Below, in pieces: positions 21,354 to 59,887 of a stretch of DNA of 64,000 nucleotides. The position numbers and the translations under genes were made by a program. Below the pieces are notes generated by a model that worked only from the letters and a program-made list of their open reading frames with translations, was not told the origin of the DNA and ran no database searches. Source of the DNA: Hymenobacter sp. H14-R3 (GTDB lineage Bacteria > Bacteroidota > Bacteroidia > Cytophagales > Hymenobacteraceae); NCBI RefSeq assembly GCF_030063445.1, contig NZ_JASITD010000004.1:62001-126000 (forward strand), in the 5' to 3' direction. How positions within the stretch are numbered: the stretch's first letter is position 1; each line of letters starts with the position of its first letter.

Positions 21354-22200
21354 GAGCGTGAGGACAATTAGAGTCAAGTTTATTTATCTAAGCCAATCTA
21401 ACATTGCCCCAATGTGCCAGAAGGCCAGGAAAGAAACGACGGTTTTTTCGTAGCGTGTGGCTAAGCGCCGGTACTGCTTAAGGCGGCCGAAAAAGCGCTC
21501 GATTTTGTTGCGGTCCCGATAGGTTTCCGCGTCCATATCGAGGGGTTTCACCCGATTGGGGTGGCTGGGAATAACGGCTTCGATGTGGTGCTGGGCACAG
21601 TAAGCGCGGTTTTCATCGCTGTCATAGGCGGTATCGGCCACCACCTTGCCCGGTTGCAGGCCAGCCAGCAGGAGCTGGGTTTGCGGGCAGTCGCCGGCCT
21701 GTCCGCCGGTGGCAATCAGGCGCACGGCGTTGCCTAAAGCCTCGGTGCAGGCGTGAATCTTGGTGCCGATACCCCCGCGGCTGCGGCCAAGGCACTCGGT
21801 TTCGGGGTCACTTTTTTTTGGCCGGCCGAATGCTGGTGCGCCCGCACGACGGTCGAATCGAGCATGACCCATTCCAATTCCGGCGCTTGCAAGGCCAAAA
21901 AGGCGCGTTCCCACACACCTTTTTGGGCCAGCCGGCGGAAGCGGCGGCAGACCGAATTAGCCTTGCCGAAACGCTCGGGCAGGTCGGCCCAGGGGCAGCC
22001 GGTCCGCATTATCCAAATGATAGCGTTGAAAAACAGGCGGTTATCTTTGGCCGTTACGCCGCAATCGGTGGCTTTACCGGATAAGAGCGGGGATACGGCC
22101 TCCCATTGGCGGTCGGTTATTTCATGACGGCGCATATAATTTAATGCTTAACTTATTTGATATAACCTGAAGCTAGGCAAAGGTAATTGTCCTCACGCTC
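21354..22200 (-). mobile_element. Intact IS5-family element (IS427-like), 847 bp
   Basis: It is bounded by 17-bp perfect inverted repeats, GAGCGTGAGGACAATTA at 21354-21370 and its complement at 22184-22200. A TA at 21352-21353 and another at 22201-22202 look like the 2-bp target duplication typical of the IS427 group. It encodes one transposase in two overlapping frames on the minus strand. It sits in the signal-peptide region of the GH43 gene. Intact ends and frames suggest recent insertion. Confidence 0.9.
21384..22135 (-). CDS. IS5-family transposase made by -1 frameshift
   Basis: The first frame runs from the ATG at 22135 (MRRHEITDRQWEAVSPLL) with WIMRTGCPWADLP and the first DDE Asp in VMLDSTVVRAHQHSAG. 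The second frame ends at 21384 and carries GRSRGGIGTKIHA, VVADTAYDSDENR (second Asp) and IERFFGRLKQYRRLATRYEKT (Glu). The two overlap at a run of eight A residues (minus strand, 21819-21812). A -1 slip there joins the frames, the known expression mode of the IS427 group. Full activity is plausible. Confidence 0.88.
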
Positions 22201-23299: not shown

Positions 23300-23911
23300 T
23301 TACGCCAGCACCTCGCCCGCCCGCGCAAAGCGCACGCCCTGCGCCAGCAGGTCGGCCTTGGCGGCGGCGATGCCTTCGGCCGAAATGCCGCGGGTGGCAT
23401 CTTCCAGCACGGTCACTTCGAAGCCTTCGCCGCGGGCGTCCTTGGCGCTGAAATACACGCAGTAATCAGCGGCCAGGCCGGCCACAAATACCTGCTTGAT
23501 GCCCCGCGCCCGCAGGTAGGCCGTGAGGCCGGTGGCGCGGCGGTGGCCGTTATCAAAAAAAGCGCTGTAGCTATCCAGCTCAGGGTCAGTACCTTTGCGA
23601 AAGATGGCTTCCACGCGGTCCAGGCTCAGGCCGGGGTGCAGGGCCGCGCCCGGCGAGCCCTGCACGCAGTGGTCGGGCCAGAGGCGCTGGGGCAGGCCCT
23701 GCCACGTAATCTCACTAAACAGCTCCTGCCCGGGGTGGGCGCTGGCAAAGCTGCGGTGCCCGGCCGGGTGCCAGTCCTGGGTAGCCACCACCAGGTCGAA
23801 ATGTGGCTGCAACTCATTGATTGATTGTAGGATGGCATCGCCATCGGCCACAGCCAGTGCGCCGCCGGGTAAGAAATCGAGTTGAAAGTCGATGAGCAGG
23901 AGACAAGTCAT
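23300..23911 (-). CDS. pncA: Nicotinamidase
   Basis: 203 residues of the cysteine-hydrolase fold. The triad is visible: Asp8 in LLLIDFQLDF, Lys106 in IFRKGTDPELDSYSAF, and Cys151 in GLAADYCVYFSA. The metal site is Asp46-His48-His52 in TQDWHPAGH. PncA converts nicotinamide to nicotinate in NAD salvage. It is a single gene transcribed towards the GH43 remnant. A palindrome separates it from mqo upstream. Confidence 0.95.
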   Translation of the reverse strand: MTCLLLIDFQLDFLPGGALAVADGDAILQSINELQPHFDLVVATQDWHPAGHRSFASAHPGQELFSEITWQGLPQRLWPDHCVQGSPGAALHPGLSLDRVEAIFRKGTDPELDSYSAFFDNGHRRATGLTAYLRARGIKQVFVAGLAADYCVYFSAKDARGEGFEVTVLEDATRGISAEGIAAAKADLLAQGVRFARAGEVLA

Positions 23912-23923
23912 AAAAGAAGTGCA

Positions 23924-24031
23924 GGGTAAGCTTTAGCTTGCCGCTGGTAGGTGAAAAAATGTGCGCTCAGCTTTAGCTTGCCGGGGTAATTGCCTTCGGG
24001 CGGCGTTACCGCGGCAAGCTAAAGCTTACCC
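23924..24031. repeat. 21-bp perfect inverted repeat overlapping mqo stop
   Basis: The left arm is 23924-23944 and the right arm 24011-24031, both built on AAGCTTTAGCTTGCCG. An extra direct copy of the core lies at 23969-23983. The right arm covers the TAA stop of mqo (24026-24028), so the repeat may double as its transcript-end structure. Confidence 0.75.
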
Positions 24032-25537
24032 TACACCGTTCAGCCCCAACACATTGGCCGAGTGCGCCCGCACGCTGGCCGTCAGGGCCGGGTTATCAGC
24101 CAAGTGCTGGCCAAACGACGGCACCAACCGCCGGAACGTAGCCTGCCACTCGGGCGTAGCCGCGTGCTCGGGGAAGCAGCGCTGCACCAAATCCAGCATG
24201 ATGCTCACGGCCGTGCTTGCGCCCGGCGACGCGCCGAGCAGCGCCGCAATGGAACCATCGGCCGCCGTAACTACCTCGGTGCCAAACTCCAGCACGCCGC
24301 CCTGTTTCTTGTCTTTTTTGATGACCTGCACGCGCTGGCCGGCCATTTCCAGCTCCCAGTCCTGGGGCCGGGCCTCGGGGTAGTACTCGCGCAGGGCCGC
24401 AATGCGCTGCTCGGGCGTTTGCATCACCTGGCCGATGAGGTACTTGGTAAGCGGAATATTGCGCGCCCCGGCGTAGAGCAGCGGCCGGATGTTGCCCAGC
24501 TCAATCGAGCGGAACAGGTCGGTGTACGACCCGCTTTTCAAAAACTTGGTGCTGAAGCCGGCGTAGGGGCCAAACAGCAGCTCCTGGCGGCCGTCTATCT
24601 GGCGGGTGTCGAGGTGGGGCACCGACATGGGCGGCGAGCCCACGGCGGCCTTGCCGTACACCTTGGCGTTGTGCCGGGCAATCACCTCGGGCTGGGTGCA
24701 CTTCAGCCACTGCCCGCTCACGGGGAAGCCGCCAAAGCCGTTGGCCTCCGGAATATCCGATTTTTCGAGCAGCGTGAGCGAGCCGCCGCCCGCCCCAATA
24801 AATACGAAGCGCGTGTACACCTTGCGGCTGTCGCCGGTGGCCCGGTCACGGATTTTTACGCGCCACAGGTTGCCTTCCTGGCGCTTCAGGTCCTCAATTT
24901 CCTGGCCTAGCTCGAAGGCCACGCCCGGCTGCTGGCGCAGCTGGGCGAAGAGTGCGCGGGTGAGCGCGCCGAAGTTGACGTCGGTGCCAATGGCCATGCG
25001 CGTGGCGGCCACCGGCTGGGCGGGGTCGCGGCCACTCATTACCAGCGGCATCCACTGCGCCAGCCGGGCGGGGTCGGTGCTAAACTCCATGCCCGCAAAC
25101 AGCGGCGAGCCTAGCATGGTCTCGTAGCGCGTGCGCAGGTAGGCCACGTTGGCCGCGCCCCACACAAAGCTCATGTGCGGAATGCTGTGGATGAAGGACC
25201 CCGGCTCGGGCAAGTCGCCGGCCTCCACCAGGCTCGCCCACAGCTGCTTACTCAGCTCAAACTGCTCGGCAATCTTGTCGGCCTTCGAGATATCCACGCT
25301 GCCATCGGGCAGCTGGGGCGTGTAGTTGAGCTCGCAAAAGGCCGAGTGGCCGGTGCCGGCGTTGTTCCAGGCATCGGAGCTTTCGGCGGCTACCGCGTCG
25401 AGGCGCTCATACACGGCAATGGTCAGGCTGGGGTCAAGCTTTTTGAGTAGTACGCCCAGCGTGGCACTCATGATGCCCGCCCCAATGAGCACCACATCAG
25501 CGGTGAGTGGCTGCACCGGTGGAGTTTTCAAATTCAT
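24026..25537 (-). CDS. mqo: Malate:quinone oxidoreductase
   Basis: 503 residues. The N-terminal FAD-binding loop is ADVVLIGAGIMSATLGVLLK. WNNAGTGHSAFCELNYTP and the C-terminal LLGASPGASTAVSIMLDL are signature Mqo segments. It is a membrane-associated flavoprotein that oxidises malate to oxaloacetate and passes electrons to quinone, replacing or supplementing soluble malate dehydrogenase in the TCA cycle. Length is normal. It is a single-gene unit whose 3' end overlaps the palindrome. Confidence 0.95.
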   Translation of the reverse strand: MNLKTPPVQPLTADVVLIGAGIMSATLGVLLKKLDPSLTIAVYERLDAVAAESSDAWNNAGTGHSAFCELNYTPQLPDGSVDISKADKIAEQFELSKQLWASLVEAGDLPEPGSFIHSIPHMSFVWGAANVAYLRTRYETMLGSPLFAGMEFSTDPARLAQWMPLVMSGRDPAQPVAATRMAIGTDVNFGALTRALFAQLRQQPGVAFELGQEIEDLKRQEGNLWRVKIRDRATGDSRKVYTRFVFIGAGGGSLTLLEKSDIPEANGFGGFPVSGQWLKCTQPEVIARHNAKVYGKAAVGSPPMSVPHLDTRQIDGRQELLFGPYAGFSTKFLKSGSYTDLFRSIELGNIRPLLYAGARNIPLTKYLIGQVMQTPEQRIAALREYYPEARPQDWELEMAGQRVQVIKKDKKQGGVLEFGTEVVTAADGSIAALLGASPGASTAVSIMLDLVQRCFPEHAATPEWQATFRRLVPSFGQHLADNPALTASVRAHSANVLGLNGVG

Positions 25538-25679
25538 ATGTAAAAAGAAGGGATTAGCGCTGCGGAAGGTAACTTTGTGAGCTTTACCTTACTATGGGCA
25601 AACATTGGCCAGCAGCAGAAGTAAAGCGGAACCAACAGAATTAACCAGTAGCGCCGGGGCGTAGAGAGAAGAGTTGAGT

Positions 25680-26114
25680 ATGAATAGCGAGCCAGCGGGT
25701 TGTTACAGCATCGTTTACAGTAGTACGGTCATTGTCGATTTTACGGAGGAAAGCTTGCTGCGGCTATTGCGCCGCGCACGCGTATTTAATGCGCAGGCCG
25801 GCATCACGGGCGTGCTGATGTACGGCGGCGGCCGGTTTATGCAAGTGCTGGAGGGCTGCCCGGCGGCCGTGCGCTGCCTCTACGCCCGCATTGCCACCGA
25901 CCCCCGCCACGGCCGCCTCGAAAAGCTGGCCGACGGCCTGGTAGCCCGTCGCGAATTTACGGAATGGCACATGAGCTTTGCGCCGCTGCCCGCCGGGTTT
26001 CCGCTGCCGGGCTACCTCACGCCGCCGCAGCTGGTGATAGCCAGCGCCGGCACCCTGGTGCAACCGCTACTGAGCGAGTTCATGGCGTCGTGCTTTGAGC
26101 AAGTGGCCGCCTAA
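25680..26114 (+). CDS. BLUF-domain blue-light photoreceptor
   Basis: 144 residues from the ATG at 25680. One BLUF domain fills most of the protein. The flavin-site residues align with AppA: Tyr13 (IVYSSTV), Asn37 (VFNAQAGITG), Gln55 (RFMQVLEG), Trp96 and Met98 (FTEWHMSF). The Tyr-Gln-flavin network should give the standard red-shifted signalling state. There is no output domain, so it must act through a partner protein. Its stop codon overlaps that of the convergent RNA-ligase-like gene. A photoproduct-lyase-like gene lies close by, which suggests a light response. Confidence 0.93.
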   Translation: MNSEPAGCYSIVYSSTVIVDFTEESLLRLLRRARVFNAQAGITGVLMYGGGRFMQVLEGCPAAVRCLYARIATDPRHGRLEKLADGLVARREFTEWHMSFAPLPAGFPLPGYLTPPQLVIASAGTLVQPLLSEFMASCFEQVAA

Positions 26115-26629
26115 GCCCCGCCGCGAAACGCGAAGCGTTGCCGCAGCTCCCAGGGCCCGCCCTTGTACGCCCACAGCGCCAGCCCCGTGCCCTGTGCCTC
26201 AAATGGTTGAAAGCCAGCCGTTAGCTCTTCGTACAAAGCGCGCGCTACGGCCGGGTCCACCTTGTTTTGCGCCGTAATGTGGGGGCGCAGGCCCTGCTGG
26301 TCCTGGGGCGATAGCCAGGCCTGCCACTGCCGCTGCAAGCCGCGGTGCAGGGCTGGCAGGTTGGGGTTGTCGAGGGTATACATTACGCCCCGGCCCATAA
26401 ACTTGAGGCCCGTCACTTGCAAGGGCAGCGGGCCGGGCTGGGCGGCGGCCATTTTAGCAAGGTGCTGTGTGATAGCGCTTTCCTCTGCGCCCGGCAGGGC
26501 GTGAAACAGCGTGAGGTGGGCACTGAGGTAATTGATTTTGGGCGGAAAATAGCGGCGGCGCTGCTCGTCAAAAAACGCCTGGCTGGCCGCGTCGAGCGTC
26601 AGCGTCAGGATAAGGGGGGCATTGGTCAT
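26111..26629 (-). CDS. 2'-5' RNA ligase/phosphodiesterase-like protein
   Basis: 172 residues from the ATG at 26629 (MTNAPLILTLTLDAASQAFF). Two HxT/S motifs of the 2H phosphoesterase superfamily are present: HLTLFHALPG near residue 38 and HITAQNKV near residue 120. Such enzymes act on 2',3'-cyclic phosphates or 2'-5' RNA linkages. In bacteria their natural substrates are mostly unknown. The gene converges on the BLUF gene, sharing 4 bp at the stop codons. Confidence 0.85.
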   Translation of the reverse strand: MTNAPLILTLTLDAASQAFFDEQRRRYFPPKINYLSAHLTLFHALPGAEESAITQHLAKMAAAQPGPLPLQVTGLKFMGRGVMYTLDNPNLPALHRGLQRQWQAWLSPQDQQGLRPHITAQNKVDPAVARALYEELTAGFQPFEAQGTGLALWAYKGGPWELRQRFAFRGGA

Positions 26630-26708
26630 AGTGCGGGCTATACGCAAAACAGGCCCGGCCGGTGCGGTAACCAAAAGGAAGATAGGAAGAAAGATTTATT
26701 TTTTATCT

Positions 26709-26726
26709 ACTTGTAAATCAACAAGT
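26709..26726. promoter_or_regulatory. Candidate operator palindrome before SPL-like gene
   Basis: ACTTGT (26709-26714) and ACAAGT (26721-26726) form a 6-bp inverted repeat with a 6-bp spacer in the AT-rich gap between divergent genes, 62 bp upstream of the SPL-like ATG. It has the shape of a dimeric regulator site. No regulator is encoded beside it, so assignment is tentative. Confidence 0.3.
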
Positions 26727-26788
26727 TAAATACATGGTGTAAATGTGCAAAAACGACCTAATCCGGGCCGGTTGGCGTTTACCAGGTA

Positions 26789-27916
26789 ATGCAGACTGAC
26801 TTATTTTTGCCCGTTCTCAATGCCCCCGCGCCGGCCCAGCCGCTGGCACCCGCCGCCGATGCTGCCCGCACTCACGGCGCAAAACTATGGCTGCCCAAGC
26901 GCGTGCTTTTTACGCCCGCCGCCCTCGACGAGCCCTACGGCCAGCAGATGCTGGCCCGCGCCACGGCCCTCAACCTCGACATTGAGCTGCTCAAAAGCAA
27001 CCGCCTCACCGGCCTGCGCGGCGACGACGAGCGCGCCACCTACCGCACCGCCAAAACCACGCTGGCCGTGGTAAATGCGCCCGCCGGGGCGCTGCGCCTG
27101 CAACCCACGCCCCCCTCAGCCGACTACCAGCTCAACCTGGCCGAGGGCTGCCCCGCCCACTGCCAGTACTGCTACCTGGCTGGCAGCCTCAGCGGCCCGC
27201 CCGTGGTGCGCGCCTTCGCCAACCTGCCTAAGCTGCTGGAAAACACCCAGGTATACGAGCAAGCCGGCCGCTTCGTAAGCTTCGAGGCCAGCTGCTACAC
27301 CGACGTTTTGGGCATCGAGCACCTCACCGGGGCGCTCGGCGAGGCCGTAAAATACTTTGCCGGCCGCGAAGGAGCCCGCCTGCGCTTCGTGAGCAAATAT
27401 GACCACGTAGAAACCCTGCTGGGCCTGCCGCACCAGGGCCACACCCGCGCCCGCGCCTCGCTCAATGCCGAGCCACTGGCCCGGCAGCTGGAGGGCGGCA
27501 CAGCCAGCATTGAGGCGCGCATTCAGGGGCTGCGGCGGCTGGCGCTGCCGGTGGCGCAGGGCGGCGGCGGCGGCTACCCGGTGGGCGTGCTGCTAGCCCC
27601 CATTATGCCCATGCCCGACTGGCAGCGGCACTACGGCGAGCTGTTCGACCGCTTGCAGGCGGCCTTCGACTTCGACTGCGACCTTACCGTGGAGTTCGTT
27701 ACCCACCGCTTCACACCCGGCTCGAAGGAGGTGCTGCTGGGCTGGTACCCCAACACGTCGCTCGACCTCGACGAGAGCACCCGCGCCGTGAAGCGCAACA
27801 AGTTTGGCGGCCTCAAGTACGTGTATGACCAGCCCACCATGAAAGAGCTAAAAGCCTGGTTCTATGCCGAGTGGCAGCGCCGCTTCCCCCACGCGCCAGT
27901 GCAGTACTGGACGTAG
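26789..27916 (+). CDS. Spore photoproduct lyase-like radical SAM enzyme
   Basis: 375 residues. The radical-SAM cluster motif is CPAHCQYCYL (Cys121, 125, 128), with the C-x3-C-x2-C spacing and flanks of SplB. FEASCYTDVLGIEHLTG contains Cys169, matching the hydrogen-donor cysteine of known spore photoproduct lyases (their FEAAC segment). EFVTHRFTPGSKEVLLGWYP is the conserved C-terminal part. SplB repairs 5-thyminyl-dihydrothymine. The organism inferred here does not sporulate, so the substrate may be the same lesion formed in dry or condensed DNA, or another photoproduct. The family is firm; the activity is inferred. Confidence 0.88.
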   Translation: MQTDLFLPVLNAPAPAQPLAPAADAARTHGAKLWLPKRVLFTPAALDEPYGQQMLARATALNLDIELLKSNRLTGLRGDDERATYRTAKTTLAVVNAPAGALRLQPTPPSADYQLNLAEGCPAHCQYCYLAGSLSGPPVVRAFANLPKLLENTQVYEQAGRFVSFEASCYTDVLGIEHLTGALGEAVKYFAGREGARLRFVSKYDHVETLLGLPHQGHTRARASLNAEPLARQLEGGTASIEARIQGLRRLALPVAQGGGGGYPVGVLLAPIMPMPDWQRHYGELFDRLQAAFDFDCDLTVEFVTHRFTPGSKEVLLGWYPNTSLDLDESTRAVKRNKFGGLKYVYDQPTMKELKAWFYAEWQRRFPHAPVQYWT

Positions 27917-28505: not shown

Positions 28506-28778
28506 TCAACAGCCACTTCGAAAATCGGGATAATCGTCGAAGCCCGGCGCGGCTAGGTCACCAACCCGGATAATATGATCGAGGCGCACTTCTTCGCCCG
28601 AGGTTAGCTGGGCATATTCCACGTGGTCGCGCACGAAGAAGGTTTTGAACACTACCGAACCCTGGCAAAGCTGCCGCAAGTCGTTGAAATACTGCAAGTA
28701 AACTTGCTGCTTGCGGGTGGCAATGGCTTCCAGCTCGTCGTAAAAGCCACAGGCAATGGGTTGATAATCAGTAGCCAT
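28506..28778 (-). CDS. Rho-binding antiterminator (Rof) family protein
   Basis: 90 residues from the ATG at 28778. YQPIACGFYDELEAIATRK matches the Y-PI-C-FYD-LE-A opening of the Rof family. The rest is a small beta barrel ending VRLDHIIRVGDL. Rof binds the Rho factor and can inhibit termination. A longer frame runs upstream but looks like random translation of the intergenic region. Stands alone, convergent with the pseudogene. Confidence 0.85.
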   Translation of the reverse strand: MATDYQPIACGFYDELEAIATRKQQVYLQYFNDLRQLCQGSVVFKTFFVRDHVEYAQLTSGEEVRLDHIIRVGDLAAPGFDDYPDFRSGC

Positions 28779-29109
28779 GAGGGTAGTAAATAGTTGTGAG
28801 GTTGGGCTGATGTGCGGCGCTACCCGGCGAAACAATCGCCTTGGGTAGCCTATAATGGGCCCCGATGGCCCGGTTTTGTTTACGCTATTTGCCCACCGCT
28901 GGCCAGTTTTAGCGTGGTGTTGCGCCTGTTTAGGTCGGGTTGCCCATCTTTTACCCAACTGGTTTTGCTCCCGTTTACCAATTGGGACGTACCTTTAGAG
29001 CACAAAAGGCAAATCGCCACGTTTCAGTACCATTACGTAGCTCACACTACGTTAATAGATAGGTTCGCTGCTGCTTGCTTTATCACAACCCCATTTTTTC
29101 CCTAGCATT

Positions 29110-57480: not shown

Positions 57481-57601
57481 GGGGTAAAGAACGATTACTA
57501 GTCGTCTTATCTTTATCTTGCTTCAGCGTAGAGTAGGGGAAAAGCGGTCTCCGTTAACTATGTTTGTTCATAATACGGATAAGTACAATAATAACTTCAA
57601 G

Positions 57602-59887
57602 ATGGCTAATTACGATTTTCTAAGTTTATCTGCTGACGAATTTGAGGAACTTTCAGGTGATTTGCTACAGAAGAAATTCTCAATTGAATTAGAGTCCTTC
57701 ACAAGTGGTAGAGATGGGGGTATCGATTTGCGCCATTCAACAGATAGGGGAAAGACGTTAATAGTGCAGTGCAAGAGATATAAAGATTACTCATCACTGC
57801 TTTCAGTACTGGCCAATAAGGAGCTTGATAAAATTAAGCTTCTAAAACCATCTAGGTACGTATTAGTGACTTCAGTTGGTCTGACTCCGCATCAAAAGAA
57901 GGAGATTAAGAGAATATTAAGTCCGTTTATTAAGAGGCAATCTGATATACTTGGTAAAAGTGATATAAACGCTTTGTTGAGGCAGTTTCCAGATGTAGAG
58001 AAAGTGCATTTTAAGTTGTGGATGTCTAGTGTATCTGTATTAGAACGTATCATACATAGCAAGGTGTACAACCAAACTATGATTGAAAAAGAATCTATTA
58101 AACAAACGGTTAAGCTTTATGTAAGAAATAGGAGTCTTGATGAAGCTTTTGAAATAATAAAAGAAAACAAATACGTTGTAGTGTCAGGTATACCAGGTAT
58201 TGGTAAAACTACACTAGCTCGAATTCTTGTTTGTCAATTGCTTTCTAGTGGATATGATGAATTAATAGTAATTTCTAATTCTATAGATGAAGCTTATGCT
58301 GTTTTGCGTGAAGAAGCAAAACAGGTTTTCCTTTTTGATGACTTCTTAGGGTCAAACTTTCTGAATAATACGCTCACTACTAATGAAGAACAGCGAATAG
58401 TTTCGTTTATTGAATATGTAAAAAAATCAAGTAACAAAATATTTATTTTCACTACTCGCGAATACATTTTAACTCAAGCAAAACAAAGGTATGATATTTT
58501 TGATATAACTAATTTTGCTAAATGCATAGTAGATGTTTCTAAGTATTCGCAAGGAGTGCGTGCTAAAATATTATACAATCACATATTTTTTTCTGATTTG
58601 AGTGAGCCCTATGTCGATGCATTATTGAAAGATGATGGCTACTTAAAAATCCTTGAGCATCCCAATTTCAATCCTAGAACTATCGAAATAGCACTCCGCC
58701 CATCAGCTTGGCGTGGGATAGAGCCTGATGAATTTCCTGCTAAATTTATAACTTATTTGAAAAACTCTAATGAAATTTGGCGGCACGTCTTTACACAACA
58801 AATTTCTTCTTTATCACAGGTTTTGCTCGCTAATTTAATGTCAGCTGGTGCGCCTATTATGCTCGATGATTTGAAGCAGCTTGTTCAGAATTTTGCTAAT
58901 AAGTACAGTGCAAAATATGGTGTAAAATACGGAGAACATGATTTTCAGAATTCTATAAGAGAAATAAGCGATACATTTATTAATTTAGATAAAGATGATA
59001 AAAATAATTTTTTAGTTTCTTACCATAATCCTTCTGTACAGGATTTTTTAGTTAGCCACTTTTCAGGACTTAATGACTATGTTTTGGACGTTATCAATGG
59101 AGCGATTTTCTTTAATCAATTATTTACAATTTTCACTTTTGATAGCAGTTATAAATACTTAAATAAAATTATTCTAAATAGCCTTCAAAAAATTGCTTTA
59201 ATAAGTCGCCTGAAGAGCAGTGTTGATGAACTCGGATATTCTGTAGTTAGAAGCTCAAAAAATACACTAGGTCAATTGAACTGGTATAGTCCAAAGCTTA
59301 GTAGTTATGAGAGGTTACTTACGATTAAAAATAACATAGAACTGTCTAAAAATAAATCGTTAAGAAATATTATCAAAGAAAAATTTGATGCATTAGCTAT
59401 GCCTTCTAATTTAGCTAGTTGGAATGCAGAGTATTATATTGAACTCATGCAGGAATTCAAAGATGATTTTGAATGGGAGGCATTCGATATTTTAGAAACA
59501 TATTCTGACAAAATATCAAGTTTAGATGACATTTATAGTTTTGAAAAGCTGAAACAAGTTTTCCCAAATGATTTTTCTAGCTATGTGTTGGGTAATAATG
59601 TTTTATATGATAACCTAACTGATATATTTAAATCAGAAATAAAAGATGCTGACGACGAATTAGCTCTTGATAATATATCGCAATCACTAAAATCCATTAT
59701 TGCGGAGTTTTCAATAAATTATGATGATTTTGAAGATGAAATAAATGAGCGTATTGAGAGTATTCAGCAACAGCAGGATGACACCATTGAGTCTTGGATA
59801 GACGATGGTGCTCCTGGTCTCAGAGATGCACCAGATTCGGATTCTTATCATGATTTATTTGATGGATTAAAGGAGAAATTCATTTAA
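57602..59887 (+). CDS. Mrr-like nuclease fused to STAND-type NTPase
   Basis: 761 residues from the ATG at 57602 (MANYDFLSLSADEFEELSGD). The N-terminal domain is Mrr-like: SGRDGGIDLR (Asp42) and IVQCKRYK (Gln56-x-Lys58). An NTPase follows with Walker A SGIPGIGKTTLA (near 196), Walker B VFLFDDFLG (near 246) and IFTTREYI, resembling novel-STAND (nSTAND3-like) proteins. The C-terminal 400 residues are helical with no clear repeat, as in sensor regions of Avs-like proteins, ending in an acidic tail. It is strikingly AT-rich: one sampled line (58441-58500) has 16 G/C of 60 against 42 of 60 at 55141-55200. Likely a horizontally acquired antiphage effector. Confidence 0.85.
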   Translation: MANYDFLSLSADEFEELSGDLLQKKFSIELESFTSGRDGGIDLRHSTDRGKTLIVQCKRYKDYSSLLSVLANKELDKIKLLKPSRYVLVTSVGLTPHQKKEIKRILSPFIKRQSDILGKSDINALLRQFPDVEKVHFKLWMSSVSVLERIIHSKVYNQTMIEKESIKQTVKLYVRNRSLDEAFEIIKENKYVVVSGIPGIGKTTLARILVCQLLSSGYDELIVISNSIDEAYAVLREEAKQVFLFDDFLGSNFLNNTLTTNEEQRIVSFIEYVKKSSNKIFIFTTREYILTQAKQRYDIFDITNFAKCIVDVSKYSQGVRAKILYNHIFFSDLSEPYVDALLKDDGYLKILEHPNFNPRTIEIALRPSAWRGIEPDEFPAKFITYLKNSNEIWRHVFTQQISSLSQVLLANLMSAGAPIMLDDLKQLVQNFANKYSAKYGVKYGEHDFQNSIREISDTFINLDKDDKNNFLVSYHNPSVQDFLVSHFSGLNDYVLDVINGAIFFNQLFTIFTFDSSYKYLNKIILNSLQKIALISRLKSSVDELGYSVVRSSKNTLGQLNWYSPKLSSYERLLTIKNNIELSKNKSLRNIIKEKFDALAMPSNLASWNAEYYIELMQEFKDDFEWEAFDILETYSDKISSLDDIYSFEKLKQVFPNDFSSYVLGNNVLYDNLTDIFKSEIKDADDELALDNISQSLKSIIAEFSINYDDFEDEINERIESIQQQQDDTIESWIDDGAPGLRDAPDSDSYHDLFDGLKEKFI

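Follow-up and report, generated by a model that had tools for sequence, protein, structure and literature searches.

A putative spore photoproduct lyase with its own promoter-like element in a BLUF-rich neighbourhood of Hymenobacter sp. H14-R3

Gene content of the locus

The window, i.e. the whole 64,000-nucleotide stretch of the Hymenobacter sp. H14-R3 genome which was analysed here, contains a homologue of spore photoproduct lyase (SPL) close to a gene for a predicted BLUF photoreceptor. The following features were identified at this locus:

23300-23911, minus strand: nicotinamidase-like gene, a member of the conserved neighbourhood (NF008623, 212 bits vs a cut-off of 174)
24026-25537, minus strand: malate:quinone oxidoreductase (MQO) gene, divergent from the BLUF gene (PF06039, 782.8 bits)
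25674-26114 (in-frame ATG at 25680), plus strand: gene for a short single-domain BLUF protein (PF04940)
26111-26674, minus strand: 2H phosphoesterase gene (2'-5' RNA ligase superfamily), between the BLUF and SPL genes (PF13563, 77.1 bits)
26754-26779, plus strand: bipartite element CGACCTA-N14-GCGTT before the SPL gene, ending 9 bp before the ATG; putatively ECF-sigma-promoter-like
26789-27916, plus strand: radical SAM SPL homologue of 375 aa, assigned by PF20903, PDB 4fhc, catalytic residues and a structure model

The BLUF domain spans residues 11–100 of 146 (PF04940: 90.6 bits, cut-off 25) and a Pfam scan of the 146 aa found no second domain. The residues which we take to match AppA Y21, N45, Q63, W104 and M106 are all present, so the predicted protein has the flavin-site Tyr, Asn, Gln, Trp and Met of a BLUF photoreceptor. 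An earlier, sequence-only reading of this DNA had described the protein in just these terms, with all flavin-site residues and no output domain, and we agree. The short PixD-type BLUF proteins Tll0078 and Slr1694 likewise consist of one domain followed by a short tail at the C-terminus, with the flavin-site residues present; unlike that comparison set, the BLUF gene of the window is one of 8 in its genome (5.26 Mb). BLUF genes were present in 118 of the 120 genomes of the genus.

The same reading placed the BLUF gene beside the lyase gene. Both genes are real and near each other, but the 2H phosphoesterase gene lies between them on the opposite strand, and the BLUF and SPL genes therefore do not form an operon. 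Downstream, at 28506-28958 on the minus strand, is a gene whose 150-aa product weakly matches the Rho-binding antiterminator PRK11625 (25 bits against a cut-off of 117); it recurs near SPL genes within the window's own clade.

The spore photoproduct lyase homologue

The SPL protein of the window matched the full length of PF20903 (profile positions 1–338 of 338) with 279.8 bits against a cut-off of 27, and its residues 32–375 matched PDB 4fhc with 240 bits. We found the cluster cysteines Cys121, Cys125 and Cys128 (CxxxCxxC), the relay tyrosines Tyr127 and Tyr129 and the hydrogen donor Cys169, which is the alignment partner of the residue mutated in the C140A entry 4fhe; the claim that this SplB-like enzyme keeps its cluster cysteines and donor Cys169 was thus confirmed. 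The roles of the cluster cysteines, relay tyrosines and donor cysteine are taken from the available parts of PMC5368176 and PMC3742179, where the donor of the known enzymes is C140 (Gt, Geobacillus) or C141 (Bs, Bacillus). Each catalytic position is kept in 77–79 of 80 SPL loci, the exceptions including split genes, and all of these residues were also present in 30 of 30 further SPLs. The window SPL and Gt SPL have conserved stretches in common, e.g. HRFT and KYVY, and mean column identity among 18 Hymenobacter SPL sequences was 80%.

A structure model built from these 18 sequences had a middling mean pLDDT of 69, with loops of low confidence (pLDDT < 50) at residues 122–135 near the cluster and 170–179 after Cys169. 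It resembled 4fhc with TM-scores of 0.80/0.87, the next structures, those of the radical-SAM enzyme DesII, reaching 0.38. With the CxxxCxxC motif, donor cysteine, pair of relay tyrosines and SPL fold all found in sequence or model, the protein very likely works like spore photoproduct lyase.

In full length, cluster motif, relay tyrosines, donor cysteine and fold the window SPL is like SplB of Bacillus and Geobacillus (PF20903; TIGR04070; 4FHC series). It differs from Bacillus SplB in its identity of only about 35%, its different upstream element, its presumed non-spore-forming host (Hymenobacter is not known to form spores) and its score on the NCBIfam equivalog TIGR04070, where it reached 285.9 against a cut-off of 400. 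Two SPLs from sister genera also missed this cut-off (319.9 and 314.9). Because the cut-off was missed, we treat the window SPL as a distinct branch of PF20903 without an equivalog name. The gene splA, found beside splB in B. velezensis, was not seen beside the SPL gene of the window.

Distribution and phylogeny

PF20903 matches were found in 106 of 204 genomes of the family and in 78 of 120 of the genus; the gene is absent from the other 42 and is therefore dispensable. Close relatives in named genomes numbered 37 loci, all in Hymenobacter. Across a sample of the phylum 25 of 395 genomes matched, 6 of them scoring at least 279.8 bits, of which 3 are in the genus. In four genomes (L104, L111, L114 and L134) the SPL gene is split across more than one ORF, by decay or by assembly error.

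Identity to the window SPL was 61% for Nostoc, 60.5% for Kovacikia, 57% for Gloeothece, 50% for Granulicella, 45–46% for Roseomonas and Aureimonas and 35.5% for Bacillus velezensis. In a tree of 48 proteins (midpoint root, with Bacillus a long branch), Hymenobacteraceae SPLs grouped with cyanobacterial, Acidobacteria and Alphaproteobacteria SPLs, apart from Bacillus (95/92), and all SPLs split from TIGR03886-type proteins (100/100). The donor cysteine was present in 35 of 36 SPL rows (the remaining row, G450, is gapped at this position); 11 of the 12 TIGR03886-type rows, all but that of Roseomonas, have it too. These SPLs of the window's clade, at 45–61% identity and with the donor cysteine kept, have other neighbours in cyanobacteria and on plasmids; no BLUF gene is annotated in the stretches viewed (the Kovacikia record carries no annotation). 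Plasmid records gave 14 PF20903 matches, and large plasmids in cyanobacteria, Granulicella and Alphaproteobacteria carry members of the clade (L253-L257, L259); plasmid carriage could explain the patchy distribution of the gene.

TIGR03886, the "spore photoproduct lyase family protein" which includes alpha- and beta-proteobacterial splB and proteins of Deinococcus and others, is radical-SAM lyase kin of the window SPL with a similar upstream element. It is a separate family, on whose profile the window SPL scores just 67.5 bits (one scanned TIGR03886 copy scored 493.6 bits), and a cysteine was present at the donor position in 17 of 17 Hymenobacteraceae copies. TIGR03886 genes often adjoin SPL genes in the genera g2, g4 and g5; the two types were direct neighbours in several of the sister genera (L260, L262-L264, L266, L268-L271), and on a Roseomonas plasmid (L257) they overlap with a common orientation, which hints at joint action of the two lyases.

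BLUF genes in the neighbourhood of the lyase

We compared 80 SPL loci, namely the window, 74 from other members of the genus and 5 from g6, with about 9.5 kb of flank on each side; the set does not include G101, G105 and G117, whose contigs are short, or the 23 genomes of g2, g4 and g5 that carry SPL. Of the 80 stretches, 53 contained a BLUF gene no more than about 9.5 kb away and 27 had none, and all 62 BLUF ORFs shared the strand of the SPL gene. It should be noted that 8 of the 79 fetched stretches were shorter than 19 kb, all 8 of which contain BLUF. With 8 BLUF genes per 5.26 Mb, a 20-kb stretch would contain one in about 3% of cases by chance, and the proximity of BLUF and SPL genes is therefore not due to random placement. 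Within 2 kb of the SPL gene we found the 2H gene in 51 of the 80 loci, MQO in 36, BLUF in 24 and nicotinamidase in 21.

The proximity reflects a BLUF-rich neighbourhood, anchored by MQO, which also occurs without SPL. Among MQO stretches from 40 of the 42 SPL-less genomes (G107 and G108 left out; three stretches ≤ 11 kb), 19 contained BLUF, with 25 of 26 BLUF ORFs in the same relative strand. Setting this 19/40 against 53/80 (p = 0.075) is not like for like and was replaced by a comparison of MQO-bearing loci, in which BLUF was present in 44/57 with SPL vs 19/40 without (p = 0.005, raw), or 32/37 vs 17/40 when restricted to BLUF within 5 kb of MQO (p = 0.0001, raw). When stratified by clades of the MQO tree the excess was gone (p = 0.17–1.0 at four cut-offs, with 4–7 informative clades and hence low power).

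In the sister genomes G020 (one contig, 99% complete, listed without SPL) and G093 (4 contigs, 94%, not among the matches listed) the segment comprising the 2H and SPL genes is missing and the BLUF ortholog is kept. Their alignment to the window ends at 26084, just inside the BLUF end, and restarts at 28508 or 28976; the retained BLUF proteins are 74% or 71% identical to that of the window and have all five flavin-site residues. BLUF proteins encoded near SPL genes were scattered over several groups of a tree of 92 BLUFs (134 columns, many forks open), and one conserved BLUF–SPL pair was rejected on this basis. An antisense gene intervenes in 17 of the 21 cases in which BLUF lies within 2.5 kb upstream of SPL. 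Since BLUF genes cluster here with or without SPL, the data do not require a functional pair. The SPL gene is preceded by a conserved element of its own and has been lost without loss of BLUF; the BLUF gene is hence probably no more than a neighbour.

The upstream element

Regions upstream of SPL genes have two blocks in common, GGA(C/G)(C/T)TA and (T/C)GTT. The two-block pattern matched 60 of the 80 loci, all 60 with one spacing though gaps of 13–15 were allowed. With a weight matrix the element was found in 75 of 76 intact SPL loci (the 80 minus L104, L111, L114 and L134), the single miss, L091, having a frame extended upstream which displaced the scanned stretch. Among neighbouring genes of eight kinds it was found in 1 of 342 upstream regions, and BLUF genes did not have it. 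The matrix was trained on the same loci, so its count for SPL (79 of 84 ORFs) is partly by construction; this does not apply to the constant spacing or to the control with neighbouring genes. A simple pattern matched 44 of 84 SPL ORFs, 2 of 342 neighbour genes, 9 of the 30 SPLs in L059-L088 and 11 of 17 TIGR03886 genes.

Promoters of ECF sigma factors have the consensus GGAAC/CGTT. Having a pair of conserved blocks with constant spacing just before the gene, the element appears to resemble such a promoter, and its closeness to the ATG would suggest an almost leaderless transcript. The distance to the ATG varies between lineages, in some of which the first ATG is farther downstream.

A perfect inverted repeat at 26709-26726, ACTTGT-N6-ACAAGT, recurs without mismatch once more in the genome. 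It was rejected as an operator as it is not conserved: it was found in 0 of 37 related loci, where a search at the site allowing ≤ 3 mismatches and gaps of 4–8 gave scattered weak matches only. Photolyases were also considered as genes under the element; the two PF03441 loci (L057, L058) do not have it, a result which holds for those two genes.

Within the genome itself the strict pattern occurred twice, and the copy at SPL is the one directly before a plausible start. There was no excess in the own genome over a reversed-pattern control (2 vs 3, 13 vs 23 and 4 vs 6 matches) that would mark a regulon. Two of the four matches to the third pattern precede msrA and msrB: an ECF-promoter-like sequence, GAACC-N16-YGTTNTA, was observed before both genes (L274, L275/L276; G000 contigs 27 and 33). 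Of 30 msrB loci examined, from a search of 61 genomes, 1 had the exact SPL spacing, and nine others had GAACC or GAACT, a 15-nt gap and then CGTTTTA or CGTTCTA. It is possible that the msrA and msrB elements belong to a photo-oxidative stress regulon.

In 14 genomes of sister genera a stricter pattern gave 12 matches, 9 of which end exactly 7 bp before the start codon of a TIGR03886 gene. The reversed-pattern control also gave 12 in these genomes, so the evidence here lies in the positions of the matches and not in their number. This lyase-associated element, common to two families, is a new lead.

Proposed function and alternative explanations

On balance we favour the reading that the SPL protein carries out light-independent, radical-SAM reversal of the spore photoproduct, or of a very similar thymine adduct, in dry or frozen vegetative cells, and that the gene is served by its own promoter-like element with BLUF a mere neighbour. 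The sequence-only reading had proposed light-dependent control of a radical-SAM DNA repair route. Its repair part is likely, given the catalytic residues, fold and clade of the enzyme; its light-control part is unlikely, with no operon, BLUF uncoupled and a separate element before SPL. UV on such cells would form the spore photoproduct (5-thyminyl-5,6-dihydrothymine) or a close relative in DNA. The [4Fe-4S] cluster held by Cys121, Cys125 and Cys128 would cleave SAM, the resulting 5'-deoxyadenosyl radical would take a hydrogen from the lesion, the thymine radical would receive one from Cys169, and Tyr129 with Tyr127 would hand the radical back to regenerate SAM. Expression would come from the promoter-like element, most likely via an ECF-type sigma factor, on an almost leaderless mRNA. 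Residues, alignment, fold and clade were observed, and we infer reaction and lesion by homology.

It seems very improbable that the BLUF protein, as a blue-light sensor, governs the expression or activity of SPL through a partner. The 53 of 80 stretches with BLUF, the common strand of all 62 ORFs and the raw excess near MQO would fit such control, but the excess vanishes within clades, BLUF is kept where the 2H–SPL segment is missing and is lacking from 27 stretches, and several BLUF lineages, the intervening antisense genes and SPL's own element also speak against it. A laterally acquired, decaying passenger without present role is improbable too: the gene is absent from 42 of 120 genomes, split at 4 of 80 loci (perhaps through assembly errors) and plasmid-borne elsewhere, but in intact loci the residues and the upstream element are kept, and the 80% mean column identity among 18 sequences likewise argues against decay. 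It is rather unlikely that the enzyme applies SPL fold and chemistry mainly to another thymine or nucleic-acid adduct. The 35% identity to Bacillus SplB vs 61% to Nostoc, the missed TIGR04070 cut-off and the sequence around the donor cysteine (FEASCYTD vs FEASCTSD) would agree with a different substrate; against this, all catalytic residues are kept, as are HRFT, KYVY and other long stretches of Gt SPL.

The element itself might instead be an operator or an RNA or translation signal, which we think possible though somewhat unlikely. The lack of any own-genome pattern above control would fit this, as would the 9 of 12 sister-genus matches before a single gene, which is odd for a sigma regulon (the total again equalling the control's 12). 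An ECF promoter is favoured by the two blocks at one spacing, whose sequence is like the GGAAC/CGTT promoters, and by the promoter-like blocks before msrB, although the spacing there is different. Returning to the promoter reading, we suggest, only tentatively, that a dedicated, nearly leaderless promoter type in Hymenobacteraceae serves both lyase families, driving SPL in Hymenobacter and in one sister genus and TIGR03886 in further genera, that its regulator would act mainly in UV repair in dry cells which do not sporulate, and that repair of the "spore" photoproduct may be a vegetative trait of bacteria exposed to desiccation across phyla.

SPL homologues in non-spore-formers have already been published. 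In the available parts of the sources these include splB genes with predicted LexA control in alpha- and beta-Proteobacteria (PMC3323433), homologues in Deinococcus gobiensis and D. deserti (PMC3314630) and in Ramlibacter (PMC3164672), and, in Curtobacterium, a member of the family induced by UVC (PMC12029717); earlier literature on A-form DNA and the spore photoproduct in desiccated non-spore-formers is also cited there. Within the open-licence literature, as far as its text was available, we found no link of a photoproduct lyase with Hymenobacter or with BLUF. The open-licence literature likewise gave no report of a photoproduct lyase together with an ECF sigma factor and, among the matches listed for sigma factors and leaderless promoters, none on Hymenobacter. 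If SPL does repair the spore photoproduct in vegetative Hymenobacter, the lesion would threaten UV-exposed dry cells in general rather than spores in particular, and the conserved element could be used to learn when cells make ready for such damage. For this locus, the tempting story of light control is weakened.

Other features of the window

An IS4/5-type transposase is encoded in two overlapping frames at 21384-22135 on the minus strand. At 57518-59887 on the plus strand, a gene for a 789-aa protein with an Mrr nuclease and an nSTAND3 NTPase (PADLOC PDC-S73, 507.9 bits) sits in an island of 31% GC within a window of about 60% GC, and is a candidate anti-phage defence gene.
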